A DNA stretch of 64,000 bases, from the NCBI RefSeq assembly GCF_026151205.1, contig NC_087078.1:11418175-11482174 (forward strand), given 5' to 3'. This document shows positions 196 to 63,124 of the stretch, one piece after another (position 1 is the stretch's first letter; each line of letters begins with the position of its first letter). Both the position numbers and the translations under genes were made by a program. This stretch comes from Bolinopsis microptera (taxonomy: Eukaryota > Ctenophora > Tentaculata > Lobata > Bolinopsidae). The notes beneath the pieces are model-generated. The model ran no database searches. It worked only from the letters and a program-made list of their open reading frames with translations, and had not been told where the DNA came from.

Positions 196-313
196 AAAAA
201 CAAGCCAAAGGTCATAAAATCTGCAAATGATTTAAGAGACTACAGAGCAATAACCTTAGAAGCGAACAGTCTTAGGATGCTTTTAGTGAGCGATCCTAAT
301 GCCACCGAATCTG
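196..313 (+). CDS. M16 peptidase module 1, first visible exon (5' part outside window)
   Basis: This exon encodes the first strand of an insulysin-type M16 domain. The reading includes DYRAITLEANSLRMLLVSDP and aligns with KYRAIELSTKLRIALVSDT in module 2a. A CAG acceptor precedes position 196. The donor GTAAGA follows 313 and leaves one base (phase 1), which fits the exon at 4767. No start codon or membrane anchor is visible in 1-195, so these should lie in an exon left of the window. Module 1 is the only N-terminal module split by introns; the other four are single exons. Confidence 0.75.
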
Positions 314-496
314 GTAAGAAAGTTAACATTAAGGAGCTCATATTAAATCTCGTGTTCTAACTGCTTGACTGATTTATCGCTTCTTAATACTTCTCTAAAT
401 AAGAATTTGCTGTGAAAGTTCTAACTTTCGTACACTATCAAACTTACTATTGCTCACTCGTATTGACTTACACTGTATAGTCAGGGACGAAACGGA

Positions 497-3400
497 ATCT
501 CGTTAGCTTTTCGTGTTAAAAGCGATTTCTCAACGGTTATCAACTCTCTAGATGATTCTTAAAACATTTGGACTTCATTGCATTTTTGAAATAAATGCAA
601 TGAGGGCGTTTTCGGCCACACCCTTTTTCAGGGTTTCGCGGTCACTCGAATTTTTGTATATCAGCTCAGGAAGGTCTAAAAGACTATTCTGATACACCAA
701 AATGTGCCTAATAGCCACATTTATATACAACTTATGAAGCGACATATACTTTAAAATGCTTCGTTTCGGAATTATGGCCGAAAAACGGTTTTTGGCTTGA
801 CGCAGTTCATAATTTCCGTGATTTTTGGCATTTCCGCCTAGGAAGGTCGTAGAAACTATTCTGATATACTAAAATGTACATAATGGCCACATTTATGTAC
901 AACTTATGAAGCAACATATACCCTAAAAGGCTTACTTTCGGAAATGTGGCTGAAAAACGAATTTTTGTCGAGCGAACAAGACAGTATTCACAAATGCAAA
1001 TGGGCTATTGGACTGTTAACTAAAAAGGTCTTAAAGAAGACTCATGAGGAACATAGCATTTGTCACAAGATGTAAGATGACTCACTTTGTGTCCAGAAAC
1101 ACTCACAAAAATTGTAGAATAATCTACTTTATTGGGCATCTCTCTTAATGGGCCAGGACAGCAGCATATTTGTGTCTTACGAAAGGGCAATTTTTCAAAA
1201 TGACGGTTTCTTTAGTAAAGGTCAAAGTAAAGGTCAAAGGGTCAGTTGCTAACAGCAAATTGTTTGCAATTGCCGACTCATGCACATCATATACTCAAAA
1301 ACGTTCACTTTAGGAGTGATTAGTAAATAAGTTTAACTATACTGCATGATTTGTGAAAACTCCAACAATTTTTCATTGGCACCAATTTAGCCAAAATGTA
1401 ATGACCAAAATTCAACTTTTAATTTATTCATTCCATAAAACCGTATTGTTGCTTGACCGCTGACCAGTACCCCACTTTATAATTATAATTGACTTCACTG
1501 CCTCGACCAATATTGGTCTGTAATCCCTGGATTGAGATCTGTTGGCTGCTGTTTAATTTAGCTCATTTACCATTTAAATAGTAATACCGCAGTGGTTTGG
1601 TTCGCATAGATTTTCCCATCGTATGATAATGTGTGTCATTCCCTCGTTTTTTAATCAAGTGGTTACTAGCTAGCTCTTTTGTTATTACAGCTGCCTCGAG
1701 ATCTTATCTAGGGCACTAATGCATTAGTACTAGAACACTAGAACTGTAATTCTAGAACTTCAGATTAAGATTACTTGACTGAATGGCAGGGTTCGAGATT
1801 CGACTCTAAAACTCTCAGTTTAGGAGTGATTAGTAGATGCATGATGTGCGAAAACTCCAACTAGACAAGGATCATGCTTAATCAAAGTGTTCCTCGACTT
1901 GAACTTAAGTATCGTAAGCCCAAACTGGAGTTTGGGCCACTGAATCGAATACAACCTGATATTAATTTTAGGATTTCGGGAAATTCATTCAGATTTTTAT
2001 TCTTTGGTTTTTCAATTGTGCTACGAATCCGAGTTTGAGTTGATAACACCGAATTTCCTGTTTGACTCTCAAAGAGAGGAACCAAGGCGTAGGTTCCTCT
2101 TTTTGGCTCTGAGATCCAACTTTAAGATCGGACTTCGGAGATCATTGCGTCGGAGATCATGTAAGTGTAACATCAGTAGTCAGTACCGGTGATCAGACTT
2201 TTTTGCTTGATATTGGACCTATAAATCTAATGATATATTCGAAACAGCACGGGATTTAACCAAGGTTAATTTAGATAAGATATACCAGCTTTCGGGGTTA
2301 CAAGACCCCACGAAAGGCAGGCAGAGCATCCTAAATCCTCATGCTATCCTCACGTTGACCATCTTGGTCCATACCCCAGCCTCTCGTTAGAAAACAGCTA
2401 CTAGGCCCGATATCCGTCCCTTGTCCCGTAGTACTAGTGCCCTGTAAGTAAGAGATCGTTCAGATTTTGGTCATTTAGACCCCCTCCCCGCTCTAAAATC
2501 CACTTTAGCACTTTACCCAAAGCTGGAAAAATTTCACATGTGAAACCTAAATAGCTAAATCAGCATCTCGAGACCTTCTATTATATAAACCCCGTGATCC
2601 TACTATAAGCTTATAACTTATAAGGCATTGCATGCCGAAATTAAGATCCACCTCAACTGGTGATATGAACCTGGTATGTTACCTGAATGCCCTCAGTCAA
2701 ATCTCGAACCCTGCTAATGCTATTCTGCCAAGTAACCTTAATATGAGGTTCTAGAAATACAGTTCTAATGTTCTTAGTTAGTGCCCATGCCCCAGATAAG
2801 ATCTCGAGGCAGCTGTAATAACAGAAGAACTAGCCAGTCACCACTTGATTAAAAAACGAGGGAATGACACGCATTATCATACAATGGGAAAATCTATGCG
2901 ACAAAAAAAGAATATGGGGTCATTCTGAAGTGAGAACCAAACCACTGCGGTATTATAGGAAATTAACTAAATTAAACTGCAGCCAACAGATCTCAATCCA
3001 GGGATTACAGATCAATATTGGTCGAGGCACTTAAAGTGGGGTACTGGTCAGCTGTCAAGCAACAATCTTGCCCGGATCCAGTGCCGATTTATTTTCGGTG
3101 CGGTATTCTTGGTACATATATCATGGTTTCATGGCATGAATATAAATAAAAAGTTTGAAATTGAATTTGGGTCAACAACGTTAATGTGGCTCTAGCTATG
3201 TGTTGGTTCAGCCGAATTAATTATTATGTTTAATCAAGTTTATTTTTCTCGTTAGTTGTCATCCGGCTAAACATTAAGCAACTTATATTGCAGTACCATT
3301 CATCAATTTGTATATCAAAATATGTCATTGTAATTTTGCATGGCTGAAATGTAACGCTTGATTTATATATACATGTATATAATGATTAATTGAATTTTCA

Positions 3401-4296
3401 AATAAAATAAAAAAACACATTTTATTTAAATTGGTGCCAAGGAAAAATTGTTGGGGTTGTCACAAATCATGTAGTAGTTATTTACTAATGACTCCTAAAG
3501 TGAGCGTTTTTGAGTATATGATGTACATGAGTCGGCAATTGCGAACAATTTGCTGTTAGCAGCCGATCCTTTGACCTTAAGAAACCGTAATTTTGAAAAA
3601 TTGCCCTTTCGTAAGACACAAATATGCTGCTGTCCTGGCCCATTAAAGCATTAAGAGAGATGCCCAATAAAGTAGATCATTCTCCAATTTTTGTAGGTGT
3701 TTCTGGACACAAAGTGAGTCATCTTACATCTTGTGACAAATGCTATGTTCCCCATGAATCTTCTTTAAGACCTTTTTAGTTAACAGTCCAATAGCCCATT
3801 TGTGAATACTGTCTTGTTCGCTCGGCAAAAATTCGTTTTTCAGCCACATTTCCGAAAGTAAGCCTTTTAGGGTATATGTTGCTTCATAAGTTGTATATAA
3901 ATGTGGCCATTATGTACATTTTAGTGTATCAGAATAGTCTCTGCGACCTTCCTAGGCGAAAATGCCAAAAATCACGGAAAATATGAACTGCGTCAAGCCA
4001 AAAACCGTTTTTCGGCCATATTTCCGAAACGAAGCATTTTAAGGTATATGTTGCTTCATAAGTTGTATATAAATGTGGCTATTAGGCACATTTTGGTGTA
4101 TCGGAATAGTCTTTAAAACCTTCCTGGGCTGAAATACAAAAATTCGATTGACCGCGAAACCCTGAAAAGGGGTGTGGCCGAAAACGCCCTCATTGCATTT
4201 ATTTCAAAAATGCAATGAAGTCCAAATGTTTTAAGAATCATCTAGAGAGGTGATAACCGTTGAGAAATCGCTTTTAACACGAAAAGCTAACGAGAT
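497..4296. mobile_element. Foldback element with very long inverted arms
   Basis: The left arm (about 497-1800) and right arm (about 2699-4296) are inverted copies. For example, CACGAAAAGCTAACGAGAT at 4279-4296 is the reverse complement of the bases at 497-515, and GAATCATCTAGAGAGGTGAT pairs with the bases near 541-560 with one mismatch. Each arm contains two diverged tandem copies of a sub-repeat of roughly 170 bp (about 666-800 and 838-968 on the left). The spacer 1801-2698 has no recognisable gene. I could not define a target-site duplication. The element lies in an intron of module 1. It may be a foldback or long-arm Mutator-like non-autonomous transposon, but the class is uncertain. Confidence 0.8.
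3070..3425. repeat. Nested insertion in the right foldback arm; dispersed repeat copy
   Basis: This segment interrupts the right arm and has no counterpart at the matching point of the left arm (about 1395-1445). From about 3175 to 3370 it resembles 31078-31290: both carry AACGTTAATGTGGCTC, then TTGGTTCAG, GTTAGTTGTCATCCGGC and TTTTGCATGGCTGA in the same order. It is a dispersed repeat that inserted after the arms formed. Confidence 0.65.
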
Positions 4297-4390
4297 AGCC
4301 TTTTAGAACGGTTGGGATCCGACTAGTAATTGTTATCAATGAAAGAATGCAAATGATCATATATGAGAAATAATTTGCCTTGGTTTCAAA

Positions 4391-4750
4391 CCCCAAACAT
4401 GAATAATGAGCTCCAAACATGAATGATGAGCCTCAAACATGAATGATGAGCCTCAAACATGAATGATGAGCCCCAAACATGAATGATGAGCCTCAAACAT
4501 GAATGATGAGCCCCAAACATGAATGATGAGCCTCAAACATGAATGATGAGCCCCAAACATGAATGATGAGCCTCAAACATGAATGATGAGCCTCAAACAT
4601 GAATGATGAGCCTCAAACATGAATGATGAGCCCCAAACATGAATGATGAGCCTCAAACATGAATGATGAGCCCCAAACATGAATGATGAGCCTCAAACAT
4701 GAATGATGAGCCTCAAACATGAATGATGAGCCTCAAACATGAATAATGAA
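4391..4750 (+). repeat. Minisatellite, 18 copies of a 20-bp unit, abutting a splice acceptor
   Basis: Eighteen uninterrupted units of CCTCAAACATGAATGATGAG, with C/T changes at the third base and GAATAATG variants at both ends. The last unit lies 16 bases from the exon at 4767. The unit's CCTCAAACATG resembles the real acceptor and exon start CCTCAGCATG, so the array may have grown from the splice-site region. There are no spacers, so it is not a CRISPR array. Confidence 0.95.
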
Positions 4751-4766
4751 CCCAGCATCTCCTCAG

Positions 4767-4910
4767 CATGTGCGGCTGCTGTAGCAGTTGGTAGTTTCGC
4801 TGAACCAGACGACCTTGGAGGACTGGCTCACTTTCTAGAACACATGTTGTTCATGGGATCTGGCAAGTACCCTGACGAGAACCATTTTGAGACGATCGTT
4901 CAAACAGACG
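4767..4910 (+). CDS. M16 peptidase module 1, exon with zinc motif HFLEH
   Basis: This exon carries the inverted zinc-binding motif of M16 peptidases, HFLEH, within LAHFLEHMLFMGSGKYPDEN. In this family the two histidines bind zinc and the glutamate is the general base. I choose the acceptor CCTCAG at 4761-4766 because it joins phase 1 to phase 1 with the exon ending at 313 and restores the family alignment; an open frame from an ATG at 4739 exists only because the adjacent repeat is open. The donor is GTAAGA. A 20-bp minisatellite ends 16 bases upstream. Its unit resembles the acceptor region itself. Confidence 0.85.
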
Positions 4911-5054
4911 GTAAGAAATTAGAAGATGATTAAAATTTTACATGTGTCAGATCAATTAAATGGAAATTATTCAACCAAGAACAATAAATACGAAAGGAAA
5001 GATTTTAAAATGAGCACGGATTATGAATACTTAACGATCACAGCTTACTTTTAG

Positions 5055-5193
5055 GTAATGGGTACACCAATGCTTACACCTCGGATGAGGTCACGGATTA
5101 CTACTTTTCTACTCGCTTCAAGTTTCATGATATTATGGATGTCTTCGCACAGTTCTTTATAAGTCCACTATTGGATAGGGACTCAATTATAAG
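5055..5193 (+). CDS. M16 peptidase module 1, third visible exon
   Basis: The exon encodes the stretch that follows the zinc motif in M16 enzymes: a glycine-rich turn and NAYTSDEVTDYYF, then FAQFFISPLLDRDS. This matches the AFTSGEHTNYYF and FAQFFLCPLF region of insulysin. The acceptor is TTTTAG before 5055 and the donor is the weaker GTTTGT after 5193. Phase runs 1 in, 2 out, consistent with both neighbours. The following intron (5194-5649) contains a (TA)n tract near 5363-5382 and a stretch before it that could be a short retroelement tail, which I cannot identify. Confidence 0.83.
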
Positions 5194-5649
5194 GTTTGTG
5201 AATTACAACTTTATTTATGCATTGTATATATAGATAGACTAACCCCCCTACAGCTAATATAGAGCGTCGGCACAGAGTGGCTTAGGGTTACTGAAAAGGA
5301 GATAAGCACCTCAGGCCATCCCAACGTTCGGGAGAGACCTGTCCTTGTATCTTGTTGTATTTGTATATATATATATATATATTGGATTAAATATGTGTTT
5401 ACTAAAATTGAATCATTTTTTGTGCTTTAGTCTAAAACCTTTTGCTATACTCTTCATTTCTTTGATCTTGTTTTCTTTGATCTTCTCAATAAAATTCCAT
5501 TTTATGAACCCATTCATATAATTAAATTAAATTATTAAATCGAATTCATATATTTAAATACATTCATTCATACGGTTAAATATCTTTAATTTCAGATTTA
5601 AAAATTAAATAATTTCAGATTTAAAAATTAAATATGATTCCTTTTGCAG

Positions 5650-5757
5650 AGAAGTTTCGGCAGTAAACAGCGAATGGCAGAGAGAGTTAAGTTCTGATGC
5701 CTGGACTTCATGGGATATCATGAGGGTGCTCTCCAATGTAAAACATCCTTTCCACAC
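5650..5757 (+). CDS. M16 peptidase module 1, last visible exon with third zinc ligand
   Basis: The exon contains EVSAVNSEWQREL, which supplies the downstream glutamates of the M16 active site: the second E of the pattern is the third zinc ligand, as in EVNAVDSEH of insulysin. It ends with NVKHPFHT at the donor GTGAGA, leaving two bases (phase 2). In insulysin the next residues would be FGTGN. No such exon is found in the following 9.6 kb, while C1 at 49180 begins with FSTGS in the right phase. Reading through the donor gives an immediate TGA. Confidence 0.83.
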
Positions 5758-11700: not shown

Positions 11701-13456
11701 AAAAGATTCTTTTCACAATGCTTCACTCATTTTGTGGTAACGAGTGAAAGTTTCTTCATTTTTCTTCTTTTGCGCTCGAACACATGCCTTTCGTACGATG
11801 ATCTAGGACCCTTAGTTTTTATCAAACTGCCCTGATAGCCCCTACAAATACAGTCACTGATTATCACCAAGTTTTCTTATCTTCCCGATTTTATTGCGCT
11901 TCAAACCTTAAATTTATTGCAGTCGCTCTCCACGTGGTAACAAGGTCATTTTCCCCGGTATGAGTTGTTGTTCGATAATTCTGACTGTAAAGTTAACCAT
12001 GCTCAAAGGCTATCGTGATCACACCGTCTGGTGAAAACTGCACTTCCCAGTTCCTCCGTCTTCATTTTTCACACAATAAATGCGAACTGATATCGTGATA
12101 TGTTTTAATTCTTTATACCGATTGAGTGATTGTTGAAGACTGTTATGTCTGCTATAGATATTGAAGCTGAATATCAGGTTGTGAAACATTGCTAATATGT
12201 TGACCGTAATATCCTACTATCAAAGCTATCTAAATTGTTGATGTTCTTTCCTGAAATTTGTCGATTTCTTGAAACTAAATTTTATTGCACTTCACCAAAT
12301 TCTAATTAAAGTATTGCGTTCTTAGATCTTAGTCTTTTTTTATTGTCCAGTATAAATTTTGTAAATCACTTTAGATCATAACGTAGTATTAATAATTGAT
12401 TGCTCAACAATGACCTGCTACTGTTTTAAAGGTTGGCCTTGACTAGACGTTACGTGATGCACTTTATGATTAAACAGTTTCCAATGAAATAGTTTCTATT
12501 TAAACAGTTTCGTGATTATCAAATATTAAAATTGTTGTCAACCTACGAGCACATCCCTTTTTTCACCTCTCTCTTCACCTAACGTTATTTATGAATATAA
12601 AGCAACTTCTGTGGAATTTTTAAAGGGTTATTTCAATCACAACCCTTAATATAATACGGTGACTGCAGTAGGTGAGACTTCTATTTTTAAAACAGTTGTA
12701 ACATTTGATAGGCACACAATGTGTAATGTAGCAGCTGTCAACTTGACTGATACTGCAGAATTTGATTAGCTGACAAGTTCGCGCATGATGTTTTGATAAG
12801 TTAAGCGTCCCCATCCCATATTGTCTCTCGGTATAAGTCTTGGACTCTTGGGCGTAGGATCTTAGGTACGCTTTTCATTTTACAATTTTTACCGTTAACC
12901 AAGAATCAAGGGATATTTCAAGCTTTTGTCATATGCCTTTCTACTGAAATTGGCATGATATTTGTAAATTGAATAAGTAAATATTTTCTGATAATTTAGC
13001 ACTTCCCGATCTAAATTCCTAACTGCACATAGCGACCAAGTTTGGAATCATGCAAGGTTGATGGACATCATGATAAGACGCTAGCAAACAAATACAATGC
13101 TTGAATATAATATTGTTCATACAGTTTGAGCAAGGAATAAAACCTAAATACGTCATATCTGGTTTGGTAGTGTTTGGGTTTAGACACCTGCAGCCCTAAT
13201 TGAATTTGAAGCCTACCTTAACCATGCCATTTGTATGTATTTAATCAATTACTGCGGACAAAAATCGATTGTCACGTCATTGTTTGAACTACTCGTATAT
13301 TCCCGAACTGTCAAATTTGTCATTCTTAAAAGTTCTGGTTGGCCTTTGATATTTTGATAGTTGGCATCCCACTAAACGATAATGAAGCGAAAGCTGATTA
13401 TCTTCCATGATCCGATCAAAAATCACTCCCTAAACTTTTTCAGCTCGGTTCCTTTA
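5758..13456. other. No gene seen: intergenic, or part of a very long intron
   Basis: No M16 continuation and no other recognisable gene is visible in this 7.7-kb stretch. Open frames are short and look random. Small tandem repeats are present: TTACTGTCACTAAGGGTTG twice near 9388-9430, a 20-bp unit four times at 10043-10121, and a 30-bp unit twice at 10871-10930. If module 1 splices to the common exons, this is intron. Confidence 0.6.
10043..10121. repeat. Short tandem repeat, 20-bp unit, 4 copies
   Basis: Four copies of a unit based on AATATAAGCTATCATCTGAA, with small changes in the first and last copies. Confidence 0.9.
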
Positions 13457-13813
13457 CAGTAAAACCTCTCTGTATACTGTGCTTTTCTATACCGGGTACC
13501 TCGATATACTGGGCCTCTTCCTTTCCCAAAAACTTTTGGCGAATAAGTTTGTTTCGTGCAAGAAATGTACATTATCATAGCACATATTGCATTTGATGGT
13601 GATTCGATTACATATCTGATATCGTGCTGTATTAGTGTATTCCATCACGATATCGACACAATACTTGCATATAGGTATAAGGTCCCTAATGGGGTATTTG
13701 AAAAGCATGACAAGTTATTTGAGAGGCTTCAGATACCGGAAGACCGGATCATGTGAACCTCTCTATGCAGGGTTCTTTCATTTCCCGAGAGGCCTGGTAT
13801 AGAGATTCCACTG
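13457..13813. mobile_element. Pogo/Tigger-like MITE flanked by TA
   Basis: This 357-bp segment starts CAGTAAAACCTCTCTGTATA and ends in GGTATAGAGATTCCACTG. The two ends are inverted relatives, and each is flanked by TA (13455-13456 and 13814-13815), as expected for the Tc1/mariner-pogo group. It has no transposase frame, so it is non-autonomous. A longer relative lies at 37281-38016. The family assignment rests on the terminal sequence and the TA duplication. Confidence 0.75.
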
Positions 13814-14090: not shown

Positions 14091-15213
14091 GAACATTATC
14101 ATTAAAGATATCGTTTTTGCTGAGGTAATACGATTCACTCCGACATTGGCCTGTTTGTATTTATAGTTCCTTAGAAAGTATCCCAACTATCTGCTCGTAT
14201 CCCAGTAATTTCACGCGATAGCGACCCCTTGTCACATGTCAGATAGATACGATAAGTTTAATCAGTGCTACTCTGTAATGTGTAAGCTGTCTGATTCTAT
14301 CGCAACTTGAAATAGAGTTAGTAGTTTTGCTCTCGCAATATCTTGACGGTTTAGAGAAATTCAATAAAACTCATTCGAAATGATTATAGGTTGCATATAA
14401 ATAGTGGGCGATCGAGTTGCTCGGATCTCTTAACAATCATGCCGCAAAATCAGCTATTTTGATTCATTATCATGTGATTCGTGAAACCTGTCGAACCTGA
14501 CTGACTATTAATTAGGTGCGACCTTTATAATTATAAAAATTCCATACATTTCATAATTTCTGAATTGCATACCTAACTTATATATATAAATTCCCTAAAT
14601 TTCACAATTTACAACTTAAATCCTTAACGTGTTACTACAAGTTTGACGAGGGCTTTGAATAGCGGCATCCAATTTATTCAGCAAGGTTAACAAATAGTAA
14701 TGTATGACTATTCAAGTATAACGTATGCGTTCTTATGCATGATTAATGTACTAATGTAGTTTGAGCAAGGGCTTTGATAAAATTTAAAATTAGGACTATG
14801 TGATTTTGTTATAGTTAGCTTCAAGATTCAGAATATTGTCTTCGAATGAAATTCTGTTCTTCATTTGCATTGTATTTACATTCTGTTTCTCGCCGGTCGT
14901 TCTAGAATAATTCAACCAGAATGGCTGATTAGGAGCCCATTAATAATCGCTTGTCCGTCGTGGTCGTTCAAAGGTAGCTTTCAAGTATATGTAACCAAAT
15001 TAACACCCTGGCGTATTAATGGTTGCTGGTACTGTACTTTGTCATAAAGAGCCCGAAAATAATTTATTCATTCTGTTATGGCGTTATGCTTTTATATTCA
15101 TAAATCTTTATTAGATGTCGATGCCGCCTGAGCCCCTCTTAAGAAAATAAATTGAATTTATTACTGCCGGTGTATACTCATTCTATAATCTATAATTTCT
15201 CTCGGCCCGGCTT

Positions 15214-15219
15214 TATAAA
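15214..15219 (+). promoter_or_regulatory. Possible TATA box of module 2a
   Basis: TATAAA lies about 140 bases before the ATG of module 2a. The 2b copy reads AATAAA at the same place (within CTTAATAAAC near 17641-17650). No transcription start can be seen, so this is only a candidate. Confidence 0.25.
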
Positions 15220-15356
15220 CTACATTAATTAGTAATCTGTGTTTGCACTGATCGTTACTGTATGACAGGTATTCTCAGGGAATGACAGCAAGTTAACCGC
15301 ATCAGAGTTACAGTGTAGTTCCGGTGGAGTCTTGTTTCTCGATGAGCTAGGTTCGG

Positions 15357-16009
15357 ATGAAAGGCTCTAAGTATGTTTACACTAACATCTCACCTCGAGA
15401 CTCGGCCAGTCGGAAGAAATGTTTGCTGCTGTCCTGTGGACTGGGAATACTGCTGCTGGGTGTGGTAGGGGTTGTGATTTATATTGTGGTTGTGAAGGGG
15501 GGCTCCTCAGATTTATCCATAACACACTCCGAGAATGATGGTAGAAAGTACCGTGCCATTGAACTCTCAACGAAACTCAGAATAGCACTTGTCTCAGATA
15601 CCACCACCTCCGTTTCAGCCGCTGCTGTGAACGTTGGTGTTGGTTATTTCGGGGACAGCTTCGGGTTCCCCAACGGGATTGCTCACTTTTTAGAGCATCT
15701 TCTTTTCATGGGAACGGAAAAGTACCCAGGACAGAACTATGCAGATGAAGTAATGTCAGGGGCGGGAGGGTTTGTCTCAGCGTACACTGACAGCGAAGTA
15801 ACGAACTATTGGCTCTTTGTTTCCTACAACCTGAAGGTGGCTCTGGATGTTTTAGTTCAGTTCTTTGTAGCCCCCCTCATGACAGCTGACTCCATTGACC
15901 GGGAGTTGAGTGCAGTTGAGAGCGAGTATAAGAAGGGGCTGACTAGTGATGTTTGGAGCACCCATCAGCTCATGAGGTCTACAAGTTTCAACCTCTCCGA
16001 ATTCAACGG
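15357..16009 (+). CDS. M16 peptidase module 2a: membrane anchor + catalytic N-domain (single exon)
   Basis: This exon encodes about 217 residues of an insulysin/nardilysin-type zinc peptidase. Residues 1-21 form a short basic tail and about 22-46 a strong hydrophobic anchor, so type II membrane topology with an extracellular catalytic part is likely. The M16 domain starts near residue 63. H110, E113 and H114 form HFLEH; E183 and E190 lie in RELSAVESEY, at the family spacing (76 residues from H114 to E190). The exon ends with LSEFN and the donor GTGAGT, leaving two bases of the next codon (phase 2). It is only the first quarter of a normal roughly 1000-residue M16 protein. No C-terminal exons lie between here and module 2b. 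C1 at 49180 continues the fold in phase. Unspliced read-through stops at once with TGA. Confidence 0.9.
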
Positions 16010-16344
16010 GTGAGTTTTAAGAATTTTACACTTTTTGGATATGCAATATTCAGTATTTTGATTATAGTTATAAAAGTTAGTGAATGTTGAAAGTTTTCAG
16101 GGTTATTCGAGCAGACTGTTGTTGTACCTCAGTATTGATGTTGCACCGGTAGAGGCCAGTTGGTCTCATCCGTTAACTTTTGATGCGGCAAATAATTTGA
16201 AGGTTAAACATAATAATTGTTATGATTGTGGCATAACTAATTCTCTGAATTAAGTGTCTTGCTACGTTTCAAGGAGTTTGGCTAGATGGCAAAAATTGCT
16301 GAACTTTGGCTTTCATTCAAGACCATGTCTATCGCCAATCAAAG

Positions 16345-16925
16345 GAGGTCAATACTGAGAAGAAAAGACAAACTCAACGACTCACTAGTAGTATCATGTG
16401 CTCCTGTACAACTTGCGCTGCTGGGCCGTACCTCAGCATGTTCTAGGTCTGTAGATGTTGTTCAAGGAAGCACCTCAAGCGCATCCTACACATCTATTGG
16501 CCTAGCTCAATATCTAATAAGGCCCTCTACGCTCGTACCCAGACCCGGCCCCTTTCCGAGAGAGTGGGAAAAAGGGACGGGGGGACAATGCTAGGTCAGT
16601 TCTACGCAGTGACAACGACACGCCTGCCTACCAGTCTCTGTTATTGCTACACTAGGATGTCAAACACTAAAGGGACGAGTGGGTAGACACAGGACTAATT
16701 TGTATGATATTATTGTAAAAAAGGACCTATTTAAGAGACAAATTTATTTGAAAAATGAAGATGATTTTACCAACTTAGTGAACTTAGCAAGAGATAGAGT
16801 AGGATGGAGGAGTTTATTTACTTTGAGACATATTGAACGAATGAGTCTTCGTAAGCGTAAATAGGCCAGCACTTTGCTGAGCCTCTTTAGGTGCTCTTTT
16901 GTTTATAGATGTTATTATATATATT
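16345..16925 (+). mobile_element. LINE-like 3' remnant between the duplicated modules
   Basis: About 580 bp separate the two copies of the tandem duplication. A frame ending at 16864 contains DFTNLVNLARDRVGWRSLF, which resembles the C-terminal tail of non-LTR reverse transcriptases (the 'LA-DR--WR' pattern). An open frame of about 100 codons upstream of it (16286-16594) is not recognised and may be in a shifted frame. An AT-rich tail follows (about 16910-16925). I read this as a 5'-truncated LINE copy at the duplication junction; the family is undetermined. Confidence 0.5.
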
Positions 16926-18780
16926 AATTAGGTGCGACCTTTATAATTATAAAAATTCCATACATTTCATAATTTCTGAATTGCATACCTAACTTATATA
17001 TATATAAATTCCCTAAATTTCACAATTTACAACTTAAATCCTTAACGTGTTACTACAAGTTTGACGAGGGCTTTGAATAACGGCAATCGGCATCCAATTT
17101 ATTCAGCAAGGTTAACAAATAGTAATGTACGACTGTTCAATGCAAGTATAACGTATGCGTTCTTATGCATGATTAATCTACTAATATAGTTTGAGCAAGG
17201 GCTTTGATAAAATTTAAAATTAGGACTATGTGATTTTGTTATAGTTAGCTTCAAGATTCAGAATATTGTCTTCGAATGAAATTCTGTTCTTCATTTGCAT
17301 TGTATTTACATTCTGTTTCTCGCCGGTCGTTCTAGAATAATTCACCCAGAATAGCTGATTAGGAGCCCATTAATAATCGCTTGTCCGTCGTGGCCGTTCA
17401 AAGGTAGCTTTCAAGTATATGTAACTAAATTAACACCCTGGCGTATTAATGGTTGCTGGTACTGTACTTTGTCATAAAGAGCCCGAAAATAATTTATTCA
17501 TTCTGTTATGGCGTTATGCTTTTATATTCATAAATCTTTATTAGATGTCGATGCCGCCTGAGCCCCTCTTAAGAAACTAACTTGAATTTATTACTGCCGG
17601 TGTATACTCATTCTATAATCTATAATTTCTCTCGGCCCGACTTAATAAACTACATTAATTAGTAATCTGTGTTTGATCGTTACTGTATGACAGGTATTCT
17701 CAGGGAATGACAGCAAGTTAACCGCATCAGAGTTACAGTGTAGTTCCGGTGGAGTCTTGTTTCTCGATGAGCTAGGTTCGGATGAAAGGCTCTAAGTATG
17801 TTTACACTAACATCTCACCTCGAGACTCGGCCAGTCGGAAGAAATGTTTGCTGCTGTCCTGTGGACTGGGGATACTGCTGCTGGGTTTGGTAGGGGTTGT
17901 GATTTATATTGTGGTTGTGAAGGGGGGCTCCTCAGATTTATCCATAACACACTCCGAGAATGATGGTAGAAAGTACCGTGCCATTGAACTCTCAACGAAA
18001 CTCAGAATAGCACTTGTCTCAGATACCACCACCTCCGTTTCAGCCGCTGCTGTGAACGTTGGTGTTGGTTATTTTGGGGACAGCTTCGGGTTCCCCAACG
18101 GGATTGCTCACTTTTTAGAGCATCTTCTTTTCATGGGAACGGAAAAGTACCCAGGACAGAACTATGCAGATGAAGTAATGTCAGGGGCGGGAGGGTTTGT
18201 CTCAGCGTACACTGACAGCGAAGTAACGAACTATTGGCTCTTTGTTTCCTACAACCTGAAGGTGGCTCTGGATGTTTTAGTTCAGTTCTTTGTAGCTCCC
18301 CTCATGACAGCTGACTCCATTGTCCGGGAGTTGAGTGCAGTTGAGAGCGAGTATAAGAAGGGGCTGACTAGTGATGTTTGGAGCACCCATCAGCTCATGA
18401 GGTCTACAAGTTTCAACCTCTCCGAATTCAACGGGTGAGTTTTAAGAATTTTACACTTTTTGGATATGCAATATTCAGTATTTTGATTATAGTTATAAAA
18501 GTTAGAGAATGTTGAAAGTTTTCAGGGTTATTCGAGCAGACTGTTGTTGTACCTCAGTATTGATGTTGCACCGGTAGAGGCCAGTTGGTCTCCAACCGGT
18601 TAACTTTTGATGCGGCAAATAATTTTGAAGGGGTTGAACATAATAATCTGTTATAATTCTGTGGCATAACTAATTCTCTAATTAGGGTGTCTGCTAACCC
18701 TTTCATGGCAGTTTCGGCTAGATTGGCAAAAATTGCTGAACTTTGTGTTTCATCAAAGCCATGTCTATCGCCAATCAAAG
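16926..18780 (+). repeat. Tandem segmental duplication, right copy (module 2b)
   Basis: This is the second copy of the unit at 14508-16344, with small indels upstream (an extra TA in a TA run, an inserted ATCGG-like stretch near 17090, and a short deletion near 17673). After 18780 the sequence is unrelated to the left copy. Confidence 0.92.
17782..18434 (+). CDS. M16 peptidase module 2b: near-identical copy of module 2a
   Basis: This is the same architecture as module 2a: basic tail, anchor at about 22-46, HFLEH at 110-114, RELSAVESEY with E183 and E190, and a phase-2 donor GTGAGT after 18434. By eye it differs from 2a by two amino-acid changes (V36L in the anchor and D181V just before the glutamate motif) and about three silent changes, so the duplication is recent. 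Residue 181 also varies in modules 1 and 3, so D181V need not inactivate the enzyme. No downstream M16 exons are present in the next 20 kb. AATAAA at 18955-18960 could end a short intronic transcript. Confidence 0.9.
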
Positions 18781-21700
18781 GTGAGGTGATGAATTCTCGG
18801 TTTAGAAAAACCGAAATGTAGTTGTAATCATCACTTTATGTTATGTTTTTGTGCTAAAATTTGCGGAGATTAGATCGCGTGGTAGTGTCAGTGTGTCACC
18901 TAACAAATTAAAACTAGAATATTTTAAACAATTACAGACACTCTGCAGTCGATCAATAAAAATTTAATAAACGGATTATTCGATCTTTGTTCAGTAAAGA
19001 TGAAAACGAATGACTAGATCTGAAATAGAGATTAAATGTTGCAAAACAAGAGTGTAATTTTCAGTTCTAACAGAGTATAATAACCAATGTAATTAGCTGT
19101 TAATGTTAAACCATCTTGGTTTGTATATATTATATTATATGTACTAACATTCGCCGCGAAAATTTGAGCCGATTTTCTGTGATCTACTATAAATCACTGT
19201 TCATCCTACAGCAATTGCAGCAGTTCCAAGGGAAATGAATGAAAGCGTTGGGTAATTGGGTATGCTCATGAAATTATTCATGCTTAATTTCAGAGGAATT
19301 ATATGATTGGAAGATTGGAGAAATCCAATGCAACAATCAGTATCATAGGATAAGACAAGTTATTTAAACAAGTTATTGACGAGATGCTGCATGAGTCCTG
19401 CAAGCGTAGCGGTGAAGATATGATGGAATAATTACCACTAATCAAAACTGCAGGTTACATTGTTAACATTACCAAGCCATCATTTTGCTTCTAATTGCCC
19501 GTTTACTCGTTGTTTCCTTTTGCCCGGCGTGTTAATATCATCTCTCCTCTTTTCGGTTTGCAATCCTGGAAACTTTATCTTACGAGCCATACACTATCTC
19601 TCTCCATCACTTGGGTGTTTATCGGAAAGTAAACTGAAGGAAACGACGGATTATCTGTTATAAATGATCCCTATGTTCGTTTAAAAGACGTTTACCCTGT
19701 CAGCGTCATTCTTCTTCATGACAGAGGAATAGTAATAGAGCTTGTAAGGTTTTCTAGCGTTTGCTACGTGCACAGTTCTTCTTGGAATCCTGGATATTGG
19801 TTTAATGTTCCCTTGGGAATAGCTTCGCCCCATCGTCTATATTGCTTTATAAGAAATCTTTTGTCTATTGAGTGACAGTATTATAATTGAGCGAGTAAAC
19901 ATCTGCTTGGTCAATCTTAATAATGATAAGTCGAGTGACATTACTACTGACAACTGACAATGATTGATCCTGATAAATTGCTTTCTTTTACCGATTTCTG
20001 ACGTTTACTACAGTCTACACTCTACAAGTACGTGTTATTATGAAAATCCAGTCTGACGACTTAAATAATGTGTAATAACGACACTACGTCTACATCACCT
20101 AATCTTCATTCGAAAAATATTTGCCGGAATATCAAATATTCACAGCTGATCAATTAATCATCAAAGAACACATATTGACGCAGCACGTAATAAAGCGTGA
20201 GCTATAATATCCCGCTCCACCGGCACATAACAATGGGACGGTCCAGTCACTCATTCAGTGCTGGACACTTCATTATGTGCGAGCTCCTTTCTTCTCAGCT
20301 TCCTACAAATAACCTGCACTGTCAAGTGTACAATGTGCTAGGTGCTCTGATATCATTACTTCTGTTATGAGGAAATTATTCACTGCTACTGTATGTACCT
20401 GGTAAGAAATCTTACCAAATTCTAACTGTCTGTACCATCAGTTTTAGATTTCTGTAGAATTTCTCGAAGATTTCTATTATTATTCAGTGCTACTGTACCA
20501 TCAGTTTTAGATTTCAGTAGGATTTCTCTTAGATTTCTAGTTAGACGATGAAGCCTTTTAGTAAGTTTACTGGGTTTTTATAGTTCACTGATTAGATTAA
20601 GTCTAATCTGATCTGTATTGTGACGTTGAACTACCACAATGCTGATGGTTGCTACTTGACTCATGTATATGTAATGGGTTTTCAGAGTAAGTCTAGACTA
20701 ACTGTAAAATGTTGATTTGTCAGGAATTTTGTGATCTCCTTGATTATCGGTTATATTATGTCGACTGTCGCTGTTGTCGGGTATAAAACATGTGGCGAGT
20801 GTGTTTTGCTTGAGGTCGACTCTTGATGACAGAGTTCGTTCCCACCTCATGACATGAAGTGGATGCCTTCTCTTTATGACCAATATTATACTCCCCGATA
20901 TAAATCAATAATAATATAATCAGTAATCACTCCTTTCATTTCCGGGATTATTGCAATTAAGCACTGTTTCACACACTGTACAGTGATATTGGTGCAACAC
21001 TCCTGCGTTCTCACGCCGTTTATGTTTCTTATCGAAGCTCTGAACTGTTGACGCTGTAAACTACAAAACATCCCGTCGCCTTGGTAACTTGGATACAATT
21101 CTCGATTTGTTGTTATTTTTATATACTTGTCGGCACGGCTATGGTCGAAACTAACTCTGATAAGTGAGCATTATAACTCGCTTCTTGACTTCTCCTTATC
21201 TAATCTTCTCTTCCCCTTATCATCTGTCTGAAGCTACTTGTAGTCGTTTATTTTTATGATACGGAGAGAAGCTGCATTATAATTTATATAAATCGTGCGA
21301 CTAACGGTGATAACGTGGTGACAAATTGTACGGAATTCTAAAAATGTTATATTGTTAGAAAGGGCTGATGAATTTGGCTGTGTCCATAATTCATCTGTCA
21401 TCTTTTGTCATACTGTTCCGTTCAAATATCATATATTAGCGAAAGTGATATAGGAACTAATAGGAAACAGCGAATTATATTTTTCAAAAAATATCAGTCT
21501 GATTGGATTTATAAGTCAGTGCATATTAAAATAATACATGAGATGGATTTTCTTGAGGTTTCATTTGCACAACTGAGACCTCAAGTTTGCTCCTTTCAAC
21601 CGCATTTATCAATTAATCATTGAACATATTATTTTCGCTACCTTACTCCATGGCTTTTTCTTTTAATTCATTTGATATCCATGAAAATGTTCAATTAAAC

Positions 21701-28551: not shown

Positions 28552-28559
28552 TATACACT

Positions 28560-37280: not shown

Positions 37281-38016
37281 CAATAAAACCTCTCGCTATA
37301 CCATACCTTGATGCACCGTGTACTTCGATATTCCGGGCCTTTTCCTTTCACCCAAACTTATAGTTGATTAGTTTGTTTTGTGCAGGAAATGTTCATAATC
37401 GTTACTCATATTGCATTTGGTGGTGATTTGAGTACATATCGAGCTGTATTTTATCACGATACGACACCATACGTGTTCACAAGGCCATACTTTGCTCATG
37501 GAATTAGGCAAAAATATGGATATTAAAGGTGAGCAGTTACTTAACACACAGTCTTTATTTTAGTTCCTTGATTAACTCGATACCGAATATTTTAGTTATT
37601 CCAACCAGAGCCCCAAAAGTCATATTTTGATAAATCATGTAGATGGAAAAGAATTTTGCCGTCAAATCATAGCTCTATTTTTGTAAAGTATGCTGTTTTT
37701 GATGAAATATGAGTGCTGAGTTGCAACTTACAAAATGTATCCATTTTGATTATCCAGATGGTGTAGATTTTGACTAAACGGGCACCAAGTTAGGAGAAAT
37801 ATCAGTTCAAATGATAAAAATGTTTGGTAGATATATCATCCCATCTCTAGATCCATCGTAATCCTCAAAATCTCTGGTGAGTAGATAAAAACTCTAATAA
37901 TACCAGCACTCAATGATTTGGGAGGCTATCAATTAATTGGATAACGGAATCACGTGAACCTCTCTATACCGTGCACTTTTTCATTTCCCCCGTGAGTCCC
38001 ATGAAAGATTTCACTG
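37281..38016. mobile_element. Longer pogo/Tigger-like element, related to 13457-13813
   Basis: It starts CAATAAAACCTCTCGCTATA after TA and ends ATGAAAGATTTCACTG before TA. It shares with the 13.5-kb copy the left 200 bp (TTCGATAT-CGGGCC, TTGTGCAGGAAATGT, CATATTGCATTTGGTGGTGA) and the right end (ACGTGAACCTCTCTAT). The extra middle has no transposase frame. Part of it (about 37696-37810) has relatives near 40200-40330. Confidence 0.65.
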
Positions 38017-38549: not shown

Positions 38550-39448
38550 TTGACCGGCAGTCGTGCAACGTTTCGTTTTCCTCTTTGTTACTATAATGTC
38601 GCTAACACAATGACTTTTCCATCAGTACTCAGACATGATAATAAGGTTAGACCAACAGAGTTAACCGCCTCACCAGCCAAACCTGACCGAGTATCTCAGC
38701 ACAAGCAACCTGTTTCTCAGCACGTGCAACCTGTTTCTCAGCACGTGCAAATCACCACGGTCACCATGGCGGCTGGCAGTGCTTCAGACAATGAAGAGAT
38801 CATAGTTGAAATGGAGGGTAACAACAAGGTCCGTGCCCGATCAGGCAGGAACCGCCTGGCGGCCGTCCTGGTTGTCTTGGTGGTCTTATTAACGCTCATA
38901 GTGGTGTTGTGCATCACCGTGAAGGCTAAAGTTGTCCTGACGGTACTGAGTGACAAGCCGATCACGCCTGACAGTGACTACAGGGAATACCGGGTGATAC
39001 AATTAACCAATACCATGGTAGTGACTCTCATCTCAGACCCTAATACCCGGACTGCTAGTACCAGCATTAACGTGGCTGTCGGCAGTCTCTGTAACCCGGA
39101 CGATGTCCTGGGACTGGCTCATTATCTGGAGCACATGCTGTTCATGGGCACTGAGAAGTATCCTCAAGAGAACCGGGCTGATAAGTACGCCAGTGATAAC
39201 GACGGCTGGATCAATGCCTGGACGGATGACACCAACACCAACTACCACTTCTTAGTTGAGAACAGTGCTCTCAAAAACATGACAGACATTTATGCTCAGT
39301 TTTTTATCAGCCCCCTGATGAGGAAGGATAGTTTGCAGAGGGAAATGTTGGCTGTTCAAAGCGAGTACATGATGGGTTTCAGTGTGGATTTCTGGCCGGA
39401 GTACGAGATGATGGTGGGAAATGCTAACCCGGAATCACCTTATAGTAG
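38550..39448 (+). CDS. M16 peptidase module 3: membrane anchor + catalytic N-domain (single exon)
   Basis: The frame is open from an ATG at 38550 (299 codons), but the ATG at 38766 sits in an optimal context (TCACCATGG) and is the likelier start, giving about 227 residues here. From that start: an acidic/basic cytoplasmic tail, a hydrophobic anchor at about 31-52, then the M16 domain. HYLEH is at 119-123 and REMLAVQSEY supplies the downstream glutamates (third ligand about residue 200). It ends ESPYS plus two bases at the consensus donor GTAAGT (phase 2); unspliced read-through stops at TAA. Upstream of 38766 the frame contains three QPVSQHV-like repeats that would be 5' UTR or an extended tail. 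No C-terminal exons lie before module 4. Confidence 0.9.
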
Positions 39449-46805: not shown

Positions 46806-46814
46806 ATGAAATGA
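46806..46814 (+). promoter_or_regulatory. Two-codon upstream frame overlapping the module 4 start
   Basis: ATGAAATGA gives ATG-AAA-TGA, whose stop overlaps the ATG at 46811. If the transcript includes it, ribosomes starting at 46806 would stop on top of the main start, a geometry that permits re-initiation. Alternatively 46811 is simply favoured. This depends on the true transcription start, which is unknown. Confidence 0.35.
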
Positions 46815-47802
46815 AAGAAAAGGAAAATTCTAACTGGGATCAGAATCTTCAGATGATGACCGGAAGGCCGCTCAGCATTTGCGAAGAAGAGGATCTTAAA
46901 CAGAGAAATATTTTGGAATCCGACAAGCTGGTTCCTCAGGAGGTGCTGTTTCGCCCAAACCCAAAAAGTTTGGCTATCATGGAGGAATCTTTCGATATGT
47001 CAGTTCAACCCGTCGTGAACCACTATCAGAAATCAAACTCCAAACCCGTAAAAACAGGGAAAAAAGCTGCGAAAGTTTCGTCGAAGAAAGCGAAAAACAT
47101 AAAGAAGATGGAGGAGTTATATCAGAAGCAGAAGTCAGTAGACAAGAGAGTGACAGCTGCATCAGAGGTGGAATGTTTGTGTTGCGCAATAAACGGCACC
47201 TGTGTGGGGACAGTTGGGGTTGTTCTTCTCATCGCTCTTGCTATTGCGTTACTTTCCGTTCCCGGGGCTGGCAGAATGCCAGAGTCCGTACCCATTTATA
47301 TCAGAGACTATACAGATTTTATGACGAATTATAACGATTCGAACAATTACACATTCCGTGTCCTCAAGCACATACGCTCGTACATGAGGTACGCATTTCT
47401 TAGGAAACCAGACTTACCAAGGACGTACATATCAGTATCATTTCAATTGGGGTGGATTGACGACCATTTACTGAACATTTCTGGGATAATTAAACTTCTC
47501 TTTGATAGATTACCCTACGAGAGTTTCTACAGGAGAAACGCCAACACCTCTGATTTTTTCGGTCTTATCCACAGAAGTGGAGGGACCTTCAGTTATAATG
47601 TTGGTTCTTGCGTATCGCAAGTCGACATCTCAATACCAAACTCTCATCTGCGGGAACTTCTGGAGATCTTCAGCCGGAATTATGGCTTCGGTCACACGTC
47701 AGTTCCCAAAGATTTAAAGAGCTTTGAGCTAGAGACAATTAAGGGTGAGGTGTATGAGAGTTACTGGGACCTGTTACCTGCACGTCCTGAATACGACCCT
47801 AA
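46811..47802 (+). CDS. M16-like module 4: long tail, anchor, N-domain without zinc motif; first exon of the long gene
   Basis: The exon encodes 330 residues. Residues 1-128 form a hydrophilic tail with a lysine-rich stretch (about 81-113) and the cluster ECLCC at 121-125, a likely palmitoylation site. The anchor is at about 129-149. The N-domain fold is recognisable from about 181 (FRVLKHIRSYMR, then YISVSFQLGW, HRSGGTFSYNV and ELLEIFSRNYG), but HxxEH is replaced by GIIKLLFDR and the third ligand region reads ETIKGEVYES. No zinc site remains, so as a protein it should be a pseudoenzyme. The exon ends RPEYDP plus two bases at GTTAGT, a weaker donor. With C1-C15 the product would be about 1095 residues. 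Confidence 0.87.
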
Positions 47803-49179
47803 GTTAGTAAAACCTAAATTAAAATTGTCTATCCTAATGTCTATCTTGCTTACCCTTAGTGGGTAGGCTTCTTGGATATTGCCCCCCTTATAGAAGAAGG
47901 CTCACCAAACCTTCTCTCCTATAATATAATTTGCCTAACCCGAGCCTTCTTTCTTTCTTTAATTTTAAATTATAGTACATACAATTAATGTTTGGGTATA
48001 AGAATAGATCCAGGGCACTGGCACGATAATAATATTCTTTAACATTCATAATTGATATTTAAAGTACTCAGAGTGGAAAGTTTTAATCATTCAGACTAGC
48101 AGGGGGCGGAGGTTATTGTTTTTAAGACCCCAAATATACCTTTAAAGTCTAAACTCTGCATATCTTATGTGGTACCAAAGAACGCTAGTTACTAATTTAC
48201 CTGGGAAGCCCCTCACGAGTAACTGGGCTAATTCACGTCATTCAGCATAACAGTAACACATCTGCAGCTCTCAGGGAGAAACAGTTCTGAAGAAATACTT
48301 CTGAAGAATCCATGATGATATAGTTACAGTTGCCCACAGTCCAACCCACATATCACTCGACATCCGCCAACCATGATAACCTATTAACTTGAGTGCAACA
48401 ACTACTTTCAATATGCCGGGAACAACAATTTTATTATCAGGACAAGCTTGTTAAACCGCGGCAATGTTCCATAAACGGGTCTTGAAACTTGTTAGCAGAG
48501 TCGAGAGAACATTAATACCTGGTTATCGCCTGGCCTGCCTCATCAACCAGCTTGCGTCAGCACACTTATAATTTTCGCCTGACTATCCCTCCCGCGTATA
48601 CTAATATTAACCGCTAAATTCCCGCTAAATTCCCACTAAATTTGTCCACTCCGTGCGTCGTGCTGTGGTTAATGCGACAATTTTCCTCCCTCTTAGTTAG
48701 AAATATGATATATGAGATCCCGGCAATAATCCAGCAACGCAGAGACGTCATTGTTCTCAGACTATTTATTATTAGCTGACAAGCAATGAAATTTGGCAAA
48801 TAGCTATTGTCGTGGAGGTAGACTTCTGTCAGTAAGCGGCTGGTGCTGGGGCTGTCTCTTAATGGAGACAGGATTAACATCTTGTTTCTGGGAGCAAAAT
48901 TAGGAGCAGTAATATTGTGACTTGTTAGACGTATTGTCACTATGTTATTAGTGGGTCTCTCGTTAACGCAATTAAATTTGCTTTGATAACTTAGGTATCG
49001 GGCATTGTGCTGCACGTAGAAGGTCATTGGAAATTTGGTAAATTTGGGCAACGGGTTCCTGGTAATATTATATTTTATTTAGGGATGTCTGGAACTGAAT
49101 ATTTCGGGCAACAATCTTTGTAACAACCAATTCAGGGGGTCAAACCGATTGAATTGTTATTAATACCCGTTCTCTTCAG

Positions 49180-51558: not shown

Positions 51559-51804
51559 ACAAACACTGTTTCAATAACCTAACTAACACTGTTTTAGTAA
51601 CCTAACTAACACTGTTTCAATAACCTAACTAACGCTGTTTTAGTAACCTAACTAACACTGTTTCAATAACCTAACTAACACTGTTTTAGTAACCTAACTA
51701 ACACTGTTTCAATAACCTAACTAACACTGTTTTAGTAACCTAACTAACACTGTTTCAATAACCTAACTAACACTATTTCAGAACCCTGACTAACACTGTT
51801 TCAG
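51559..51804 (+). repeat. Minisatellite of 23-bp splice-acceptor-like units ending in the real acceptor
   Basis: Ten to eleven units of AACACTGTTTCAATAACCTAACT, mostly alternating TTTCAATAACC and TTTTAGTAACC, so there is a 46-bp higher-order pattern. Each unit contains CTAAC, a branch-point-like sequence, then a pyrimidine run and CAA or TAG. The final unit, ACTGTTTCAG at 51795-51804, is the acceptor of exon C4. The array thus consists of repeated decoy or alternative 3' splice sites. Confidence 0.9.
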
Positions 51805-51970
51805 TACCCTAACCTCAGCTACCTAACCTACCTGATGGGTTACGAAGGTAAAGGTTCCCTGTACCAGTACCTCTCAACCCGGGGCTACGTCACCTCACTT
51901 ATGTCCGCTATCTCCACCGAAGCTCAGAACTTCGTCCTGGTCAGCGTGTCCTGCGATCTAACCGAAAAAG
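51805..51970 (+). CDS. Common exon C4 of the M16 gene
   Basis: Encodes YPNLSYLTYLMGYEGKGSLY and then STRGYVTSLMSA, matching [20 protein letters not shown] and KGWVN of insulysin. I chose the acceptor at 51804 because it keeps phase 0 with C3 and the family alignment; CCTCAG 13 bases later would not. The donor is GTACGC, phase 1. Confidence 0.88.
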
Positions 51971-52322: not shown

Positions 52323-52331
52323 ATATTTCAG

Positions 52332-57331: not shown

Positions 57332-57484
57332 ATGACAGATCGGTTTGACATTCAGATTGATGAACTGCTTTCCAATCGTGTTCCGGACAGTACAGTTAGA
57401 GTCAACAACTGGGCTCTAAACAAATTTAATTCTTGGCTTCAGTCATCCAGATTTGCTCGTGACTTCAATGACTTTGACAAATAG
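57332..57484 (+). CDS. Small ORF, Crypton-like recombinase N-terminal stub (50 aa)
   Basis: The frame begins ATG at 57332 and ends TAG at 57484. It reads FDIQIDELLSNRVPDSTVRV, then NNWALNKFNSWLQSSRF. The pattern of a basic/NWA helix followed by a hydrophobic-W-L end resembles the N-terminal DNA-binding helix of Crypton and DUF3504-type tyrosine recombinases. The catalytic part (R..HxxR..Y) is absent, so the product would be at most a DNA-binding fragment. A chance frame is possible but the composition looks protein-like. Confidence 0.45.
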   Translation: MTDRFDIQIDELLSNRVPDSTVRVNNWALNKFNSWLQSSRFARDFNDFDK

Positions 57485-62123: not shown

Positions 62124-62129
62124 GTAAGT

Positions 62130-62333
62130 TATTATCTTATTCTATTCATAAAGAACAATATGTTCTTATCTTATTCTATTCATAAAGAACAGTATGTTCT
62201 TATCTTATTTTATTCATAAAGAACAGTATGTTCTTATCTTATTCTATTCATAAAGAACAGTATGTTCTTATCTTATTCTATTCATAAAGAACAGTATGTT
62301 CTTATCTTGTTCCATTCATTAAGAACCGTATGT
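62130..62333 (+). repeat. Tandem repeat, 34-bp unit, about 6 copies, directly after a splice donor
   Basis: Units based on TTCTTATCTTATTCTATTCA and TAAAGAACAGTATG start a few bases after the C13 donor at 62124. Copies differ by only one or two bases except at the right edge. Confidence 0.93.
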
Positions 62334-62493
62334 GATGATATTGTAACACTGAGAGTTAAGACATGAATCACCAGTCGACTAATGATTGCTTTTATTTGCC
62401 CTCTGCTTAACATCCCGTTTTACATACAGAAATAAATAACGAGGTAATCCATATTGTTATTTTATATCGCTTAATTGTGTTCCATTATTTCAG

Positions 62494-62627
62494 GCACGAT
62501 ATTTTCGTTGATCTTCAATACAACAAATTCCTTGAACAGAGCAAATCTGATGCAGGTTTACAGCTGTGGGCTGACATTAAGGTCGCTCTAAGAAAACAAA
62601 TCGAGGAAAAACCGATTAGTTTATCAG
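62494..62627 (+). CDS. Common exon C14 of the M16 gene
   Basis: Encodes HDIFVDLQYNKFLEQSKSDA, then LQLWADIKVALRKQIEEKPI. It corresponds to the FLITMEKSIEDMTEEAFQKH region. Acceptor ATTTCAG, donor GTATTT, phase 2 in and 1 out. Confidence 0.85.
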
Positions 62628-62963
62628 GTATTTTATAACGTCATACATTTTTATTGAAAACTGATATAGATTTATTCACTGTTTCCATCTCCTATACACT
62701 GGATTACATGTATGTTTAAACTTATCCGTACTTGGTGGAAACTCCCCCAAGAATGCGCTAAACAAGGTACTAAGCACTCTGCTGGTATTTGGCTAAGTAT
62801 CTGACTGAACAACCGACATAGTCAACACTGACACCCAACCTCTGTGGACAGACGTCAATACATATTTCATTGTACCATTATAATAACCATCAGAAACTGT
62901 TCCAAATATTTCAACTCTAGCTTTTATAACTTTATAAGATGATTAATTTTCATTTCTCTTCAG

Positions 62964-63124
62964 AAAAGAACACCCAGTTCAACAGAGAGATTTTCTCACC
63001 GACACGAGACTTTGTTCGGAGAGAAAAGAAAGTGGCAGCTCTTGAGGAGATCACCATGGACGATTTTATTGAGTTTTATAAGCGGTATTTGATAGGAGAA
63101 AACCGACGGAAGATTTCATCACAG
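62964..63124 (+). CDS. Common exon C15 of the M16 gene
   Basis: Encodes NTQFNREIFSPTRDFVRREK, then ITMDDFIEFYKRYLIGENRR and KISSQ. This matches SQQYNFDRDNTEVAYLKTLT, DIIKFYKEML and RRHKVSVHV at the end of insulysin. Acceptor TCTCTTCAG, donor GTTTGT after 63124 (phase 0). If the donor is not used the frame stays open to 63313, so an alternative C-terminus is possible. Confidence 0.88.

Follow-up and report, generated by a model that had tools for sequence, protein, structure and literature searches.

A window of 64,000 nucleotides from the ctenophore Bolinopsis microptera (the whole stretch that was analysed; contig NC_087078.1, positions 11,418,175 to 11,482,174) carries on its + strand five N-terminal modules of the M16A peptidase family (insulin-degrading enzyme [IDE] type), in the order M1, M2a, M2b, M3 and M4, followed by one set of 15 C-terminal exons, C1-C15. 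We propose, with odds of roughly two in three, that the locus is one transcription unit in which the modules serve as variable first exons spliced to the shared C1-C15, giving rise to membrane-anchored M16A peptidases. That the modules may share one set of C-terminal exons had been put forward in a first-pass annotation; no other reading explains the DNA as well, and it is now partly supported, with the splice junctions themselves predicted. The window is intron-bearing DNA of ∼38% GC with 0 Ns, and the parts of the locus are as follows.

M1, 196..5757, + strand: four exons (196-313, 4767-4910, 5055-5193 and 5650-5757) with GT-AG introns, an open joined frame and a phase 2 end.
M2a, 15357..16009, + strand: single exon with membrane anchor (anchor score KD19, 2.91) and HFLEH; PF00675 at E 1.2e-23; donor CGG/GTGAGT.
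M2b, 17782..18434, + strand: single exon with ATG and anchor; tandem copy of M2a.
M3, 38766..39448, + strand: single exon with anchor (KD19, 3.51) and HYLEH zinc site; PF00675 at E 9.5e-28; donor TAG/GTAAGT.
M4, 46811..47802, + strand: single exon with ATG and anchor (KD19, 2.74); divergent region resembling domain 1, without HxxEH; phase 2 join to C1.
C1, 49180..49270, + strand: first common exon and proposed acceptor hub; matches the corresponding position of IDE in the alignment.
C2-C5, 50068-50167, 50821-50939, 51805-51970 and 52332-52488, + strand: GT-AG introns, continuous frame.
C6-C10, 54390-54582, 56072-56258, 56515-56646, 58076-58197 and 60707-60864, + strand: GT-AG introns, continuous frame.
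C11-C15, 61095-61294, 61535-61680, 61888-62123 (C13, with the R/Y pair in LRTQQQLGY), 62494-62627 and 62964-63124, + strand: GT-AG introns, continuous frame.
3' end, 63125..63807, + strand: open reading frame (ORF) 62930-63313, AATAAA at 63802, and modest acceptors after C15 (best score, 7.4).

Can every module be read into C1? All five end in phase 2 at a usable donor (5757, GTGAGA; 16009 and 18434, GTGAGT; 39448, GTAAGT; 47802, GTTAGT), and joining them to C1 gave a frame without a stop in 5/5 cases. The first base of C1 completes a codon for each of them (T for M1, G for M2a and M2b, R for M3, and K for M4), just as the first-pass annotation had it. That annotation also placed all five ends at one point of the M16 fold. 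Alignment to IDE bears this out for M1-M3, which end at a homologous position, but not for M4, which profiles do not recognize as M16. The locus shows the layout of a variable-first-exon locus, namely, homologous first exons that are arrayed in tandem, all point the same way and precede a single constant set, with phase-compatible donors and a common acceptor; the homology of M4 is uncertain, and the start of M1 is outside the view.

The modules carry the features expected of an M16 N-terminal domain. The HxxEH motif and the distal glutamate are present in M1, M2a, M2b and M3, as claimed earlier, and PF00675 was recovered in M2a and M3 when M2a, M3 and M4 were scanned against Pfam. In M1, the site is HFLEH with a distal E (active type). 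The earlier claim that M2a, M2b, M3 and M4 each have an anchor of their own also held: KD19, computed for M2a, M3, M4 and the visible part of M1, was high in the first three, and M2b is two residues away from M2a. No hydrophobic anchor was found in the visible part of M1. The first visible exon of M1 is preceded by an acceptor, and so M1 appears to begin off the window; its start and any anchor would lie there. For M3, the ATG at 38766 stands in CACCATGG context, and an additional in-frame ATG lies further 5' at 38610.

An open frame up to a donor is by itself no proof of splicing. A phase 2 end followed by a GTRA donor brings an in-frame stop immediately, whether or not the donor is used, and we therefore rejected this argument. 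The same stops raise the question of whether the modules are short stand-alone membrane proteins that end right past the donor and serve, for instance, as decoys or partners. In M1, M2a, M2b and M3, the frame does run into a stop no more than one codon away from the unused donor, which is inevitable given phase 2 and GTRA. Such proteins would, however, consist of an incomplete domain 1, and donors in the top 1.2% of GTs would be needlessly strong for them; we regard this explanation as very unlikely.

How strong are the splice sites? Scored with a matrix derived from the remaining 18 donors predicted in this locus (which score 5.8 to 12.1), the donors of M1, M2, M3 and M4 reached 8.3, 9.9, 10.4 and 6.0, which places them in the top 1.2%, 0.4%, 0.3% and 3.7%, respectively, of the 3708 GTs on the + strand. 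C1 is an outstanding acceptor, ranking 4th among 3278 AGs in a leave-one-out comparison. Between the M1 donor and C1, six acceptors score at least 9.5 and none scores at least 13. No acceptor-like sites were found from −300 to +150 nt around the ATG of M2a or M2b.

The bounds of C1-C15 were set by eye from the sequence; where two acceptors were possible (C4 and C9), the one that keeps the frame was taken. With these bounds, M4 and C1-C15 form 1099 codons without a stop, and GT-AG borders occur in 15/15 introns from M4 to C15. At the 3' end, either C15 is read through to the stop at 63311-63313 or one more exon follows. A 23/46-base tandem repeat (51562-51813) overlaps the predicted acceptor and the start of C4 (51805), so a change in the repeat could affect C4 splicing.

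We also looked for a second C-terminal part. The first-pass annotation had reported a single downstream set and no intact M16 C-terminal exons in the gaps after M1, M2a, M2b and M3 (9.6, 1.8, 20.2 and 7.4 kb), and our searches agree. A tblastn search of the window with the local C-part returned C1-C15 plus chance matches, the best outside match having an E of 1.2; across this search, tblastn with the human IDE C-part and a two-sequence profile, nothing outside 49-63.2 kb was better. When 2879 open frames of at least 15 residues were searched with this profile, which combined the local C-part and the human one, the 15 exons were recovered, with the next match at E 2. As a power control, human IDE was used as a stand-in paralog (27.8% identity to the local C-part, 195/702) and detected 4/15 exons at E < 1e-3. 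A second C-part of similar divergence would therefore probably have shown, and we rejected the idea that one had simply been missed; one removed by a clean deletion or strongly decayed would escape these searches. In Pfam, none of 10 chosen open frames (nine from the gaps and one from the C8-C9 intron) matched at E up to 1; the nine were drawn from 16 gap frames of at least 85 residues, in a frame listing that omitted 16010-17781, 27501-28609 and 47803-49179.

One potential explanation for the single set is that M1-M3 have their C-terminal exons at another place, through an assembly misjoin, a scrambled scaffold or trans-splicing, and that M2a and M2b are uncollapsed alleles. Our comparison was confined to the window, and the divergence of 14/997 bases in the M2a/M2b flanks would also fit two alleles. 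On the other hand, the window contains no Ns, and misplacement would need to have brought every one of the separate modules, in the same orientation and in matching phase, to the 5' side of a single C-part. We consider this improbable. A search of genome contigs with the C-part gave 19 pattern matches, 0 of them confirmed, and a search of viral contigs with M3 gave 5, again with 0 confirmed (both searches find only close relatives); M3 had no match among phages in near mode.

We then compared the modules with each other and with human IDE. M1, M2 and M3 are 41 to 45% identical pairwise and 39.5 to 43.4% identical to human IDE over 157 to 160 columns (43.4% over 159 columns for M1). At shared residues, fourfold-degenerate third bases agreed in 7/25, 6/22 and 6/26 cases in the M1/M2/M3 pairs, against 24%, 19% and 25% expected from composition. 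Synonymous sites are thus saturated while the protein has been kept, which argues for long selection on each of M1, M2 and M3. The comparison of constraint between modules suggested by the first-pass annotation came out in favor of conserved residues in M1-M3, whereas the test on M2a and M2b was weak.

M2b arose by a duplication restricted to the module and its flanks, a 1.85-kb tandem (14506-16345 and 16922-18781) with 96.5% identity. The exons differ at 5 of 653 bases (3 synonymous and 2 replacement differences). With the flank taken up to 16160, the flank divergence of 14/997 predicts 7.0 replacement differences in the exon versus the 2 seen (Poisson P, 0.03; Fisher P, 0.11; P, 0.32 if one copy alone is constrained). 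M2a and M2b could be real copies or uncollapsed alleles.

Which type of N-terminal part does the C-part suit? Against human IDE, the local C-part scored 207 bits (chain residues 205-919) and M3 130.7 bits (residues 29-187), a ratio of 1.6. The same parts of an active pair, human IDE and E. coli protease III, scored 210 and 124.9 bits, a ratio of 1.7. Adding M4 to the C-part raised the best score only from 207.0 to 209.2 bits; the match to the top chain starts just before the junction, and those to several other chains start near residue 200. C13 also keeps the R/Y pair (LRTQQQLGY versus LRTKEQLGY), which we take to be the pair of domain 4 meant in descriptions of M16. According to a recent review, this pair completes the active site and is found in nearly every M16 member, the exceptions being the mitochondrial processing peptidase (MPP) and the core proteins of the bc1 complex (PMC12731061). 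A C-part tied to a zinc-less M4 alone would not be expected to stay of the active type. That the C-part has been kept in a form compatible with a zinc site, even though the adjoining M4 is zinc-less, is in our opinion the strongest of the indirect arguments that the exons are shared.

These data also bear on the possibility that M1-M3 are remnants of complete tandem M16A genes whose C-terminal exons were lost, leaving M4 with C1-C15 as the sole working gene. Common ancestry would give the matching phase and position, M4 adjoins C1, and constraint on M2a and M2b after their duplication is weakly supported. If the loss were old, however, three modules with open frames and zinc sites would be unexpected at saturated synonymous sites; if it were recent, decayed C-terminal exons should be found in the gaps of 9.6, 20.2 and 7.4 kb, where none was detected (clean deletions would escape). 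An active-type C-part would likewise be odd for a zinc-less M4 alone. We therefore judge this explanation unlikely.

What is M4? It had no Pfam hit as M16, a further profile comparison gave a probability of 0.2%, and another profile search was without a match. Its identity to IDE is 14% over 143 columns, and 13 to 18% when compared to IDE, M1, M2 or M3. In low-confidence structural models (mean pLDDT, 37.8 for M4 and 43.4 for M3), strands and helices follow one another in much the same way. Together with the phase, the place and the anchor, which fit, this similarity suggests that M4 is probably a zinc-less relative of domain 1.

Several observations weigh against shared use of C1-C15. Common ancestry of the intron explains the common position and phase without exon sharing. 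M4 is not provably M16, since profiles fail to recognize it, and its donor is the weakest among the modules. M1 differs in structure from the other modules, and its start is outside the view. The identity among M1-M3 barely exceeds that to human IDE, so they are not recent copies of one another. Constraint on M2a and M2b after their duplication is weakly supported. Against protease III, the local C-part and M3 scored 118.8 and 89 bits, a ratio of 1.3. The required introns range from 9.7 kb (M3) to 43 kb (M1), compared to at most ∼4.5 kb elsewhere in the model. In the same range around the ATG that was clear in M2a and M2b, M3 has four acceptor-like sites (6.4 to 8.6) and M4 has two (6.9 and 7.0). 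Moreover, of the six top-scoring acceptors in the interval from M1 to C1, three are internal to modules (10.4 in M2a, 10.4 in M2b and 10.5 in M3), the one in M2a at 15619. Given these sites in and near the modules, skipping of the later modules is not assured.

Where in the protein would the exchange take place? Domain 1 of M16 peptidases consists of six strands and eight helices (PMC12731061). Judging by alignment and low-confidence secondary structure, the modules seem to break off ahead of the final helices and the final strand of domain 1, which C1-C2 would encode. Modules that end within domain 1 would need further exons to fold. What varies would then be the anchor and the N-terminal stretch of domain 1 that bears the zinc site, whereas the end of domain 1 and domains 2, 3 and 4 would be constant. 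The first-pass annotation had envisaged a swap of the active-site domain with the C-terminal half kept; the portion with the zinc site would indeed be variable, but the boundary falls inside domain 1 and not between domains.

If C1-C15 are shared, the locus could work in the following way. Each module would have its own promoter and would provide the start codon, the signal-anchor and the beginning of domain 1, including the zinc site in M1-M3. Splicing would link the phase 2 donor of the module nearest the cap to C1, passing over the later modules. C1-C15 would supply the end of domain 1, domains 2 to 4, and the R/Y pair needed to complete the active site. At the cell surface, the products would be type II peptidases that have one chamber in common but differ in the wall around the zinc site; the forms from M1, M2 and M3 would be active, and the form from M4 would be zinc-less. 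Such a locus would extend the gene plan of UGT1A and the protocadherins to a peptidase, with the swap boundary inside a folded domain. With the zinc-site part exchanged and the chamber kept, it would also offer a natural domain-shuffling series for the M16 zinc-site wall and its specificity.

A more tentative proposal, for which we hold clearly less than even odds, is that one gene yields active and zinc-less membrane peptidasomes with an identical C-part, the M4 form binding without cutting and perhaps tuning active partners in dimers. IDE dimers have interdependent motions, and oligomerization is needed for allostery (PMC12731061). By extension, mixed dimers of M4 and active forms may be possible. 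In that case, an enzyme and a pseudo-enzyme would come from one locus through promoter choice, which would determine the specificity as well as how many active subunits there are for each silent one.

The window also contains repeats. A large imperfect inverted repeat (490-4303), similar to foldback or terminal-inverted-repeat elements, fills most of the first visible intron of M1; its arms comprise pieces of 71 to 507 nt that are 82 to 97% complementary, with one match of 911 columns at 91%, and the joined M1 frame is intact around it. A 20-base tandem repeat (4394-4749) ends 17 bases upstream of the second visible M1 exon. At 27566-28804, a 33-base minisatellite of ∼30 copies (27580-28552) carries a 412-amino-acid ORF, with long ORFs on the opposite strand too; we rejected this ORF as a gene because the repeat unit is a multiple of 3 and the sequence is also open in other frames. 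Two dispersed repeat pairs (13455-13667 with 37279-37475, and 3176-3352 with 31079-31265; ∼74 to 75% identity) are perhaps old mobile elements. A short ORF in the C8-C9 intron (57332-57481), beginning MTDRFDIQ, had no Pfam hit; its start may resemble the N termini of transposon-type recombinases. Rfam returned 0 matches and ARAGORN 0 genes in the window.

How does this locus compare with known systems? In the matches listed by our literature search (titles and the starts of abstracts), we found no M16 locus with variable first exons. The closest parallel is UGT1A, which also encodes an enzyme and also places tandem first exons, coding for the N-terminal domain and the targeting sequence, before one common downstream set (PMC1885805). 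There, the variable exons encode the acceptor-binding domain, and the four constant exons include the membrane anchor (PMC1885805). Here, in contrast, the proposed variable part holds both the anchors (M2a, M2b, M3 and M4) and the zinc site, its boundary falls within a single domain, the common exons number 15, one module is multiexonic, and one lacks the catalytic motif. The clustered protocadherins and the chelicerate sDscam genes resemble our proposal in having a promoter for each cassette and joining to a constant exon (PMC4835542). The cassettes of sDscam are multiexonic, as M1 is, and downstream cassettes may also splice to the constant exon (PMC4835542). Those genes encode cell surface receptors with a variable ectodomain, whereas the products here would be enzymes with a variable active-site part.

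Among peptidases, IDE and nardilysin represent the two main metazoan M16A clades (PMC8774118). They share with the locus homologous sequence (compared for IDE), HxxEH and the glutamate in M1-M3, and the R/Y pair in the C-part (PMC12731061, PMC8774118). The locus differs from them in its module anchors and the proposed swap of the zinc site; the available text of these two papers describes no such gene. The coexistence of active and zinc-less forms of M16, as proposed here, is known from MPP alpha/beta and the bc1 core proteins, MPP alpha and the core proteins being M16 pseudopeptidases (PMC11266112). In those systems the forms are separate subunits (PMC11266112), whereas here a single locus would produce both, and the C-part, with its R/Y pair kept, would be identical in the two.

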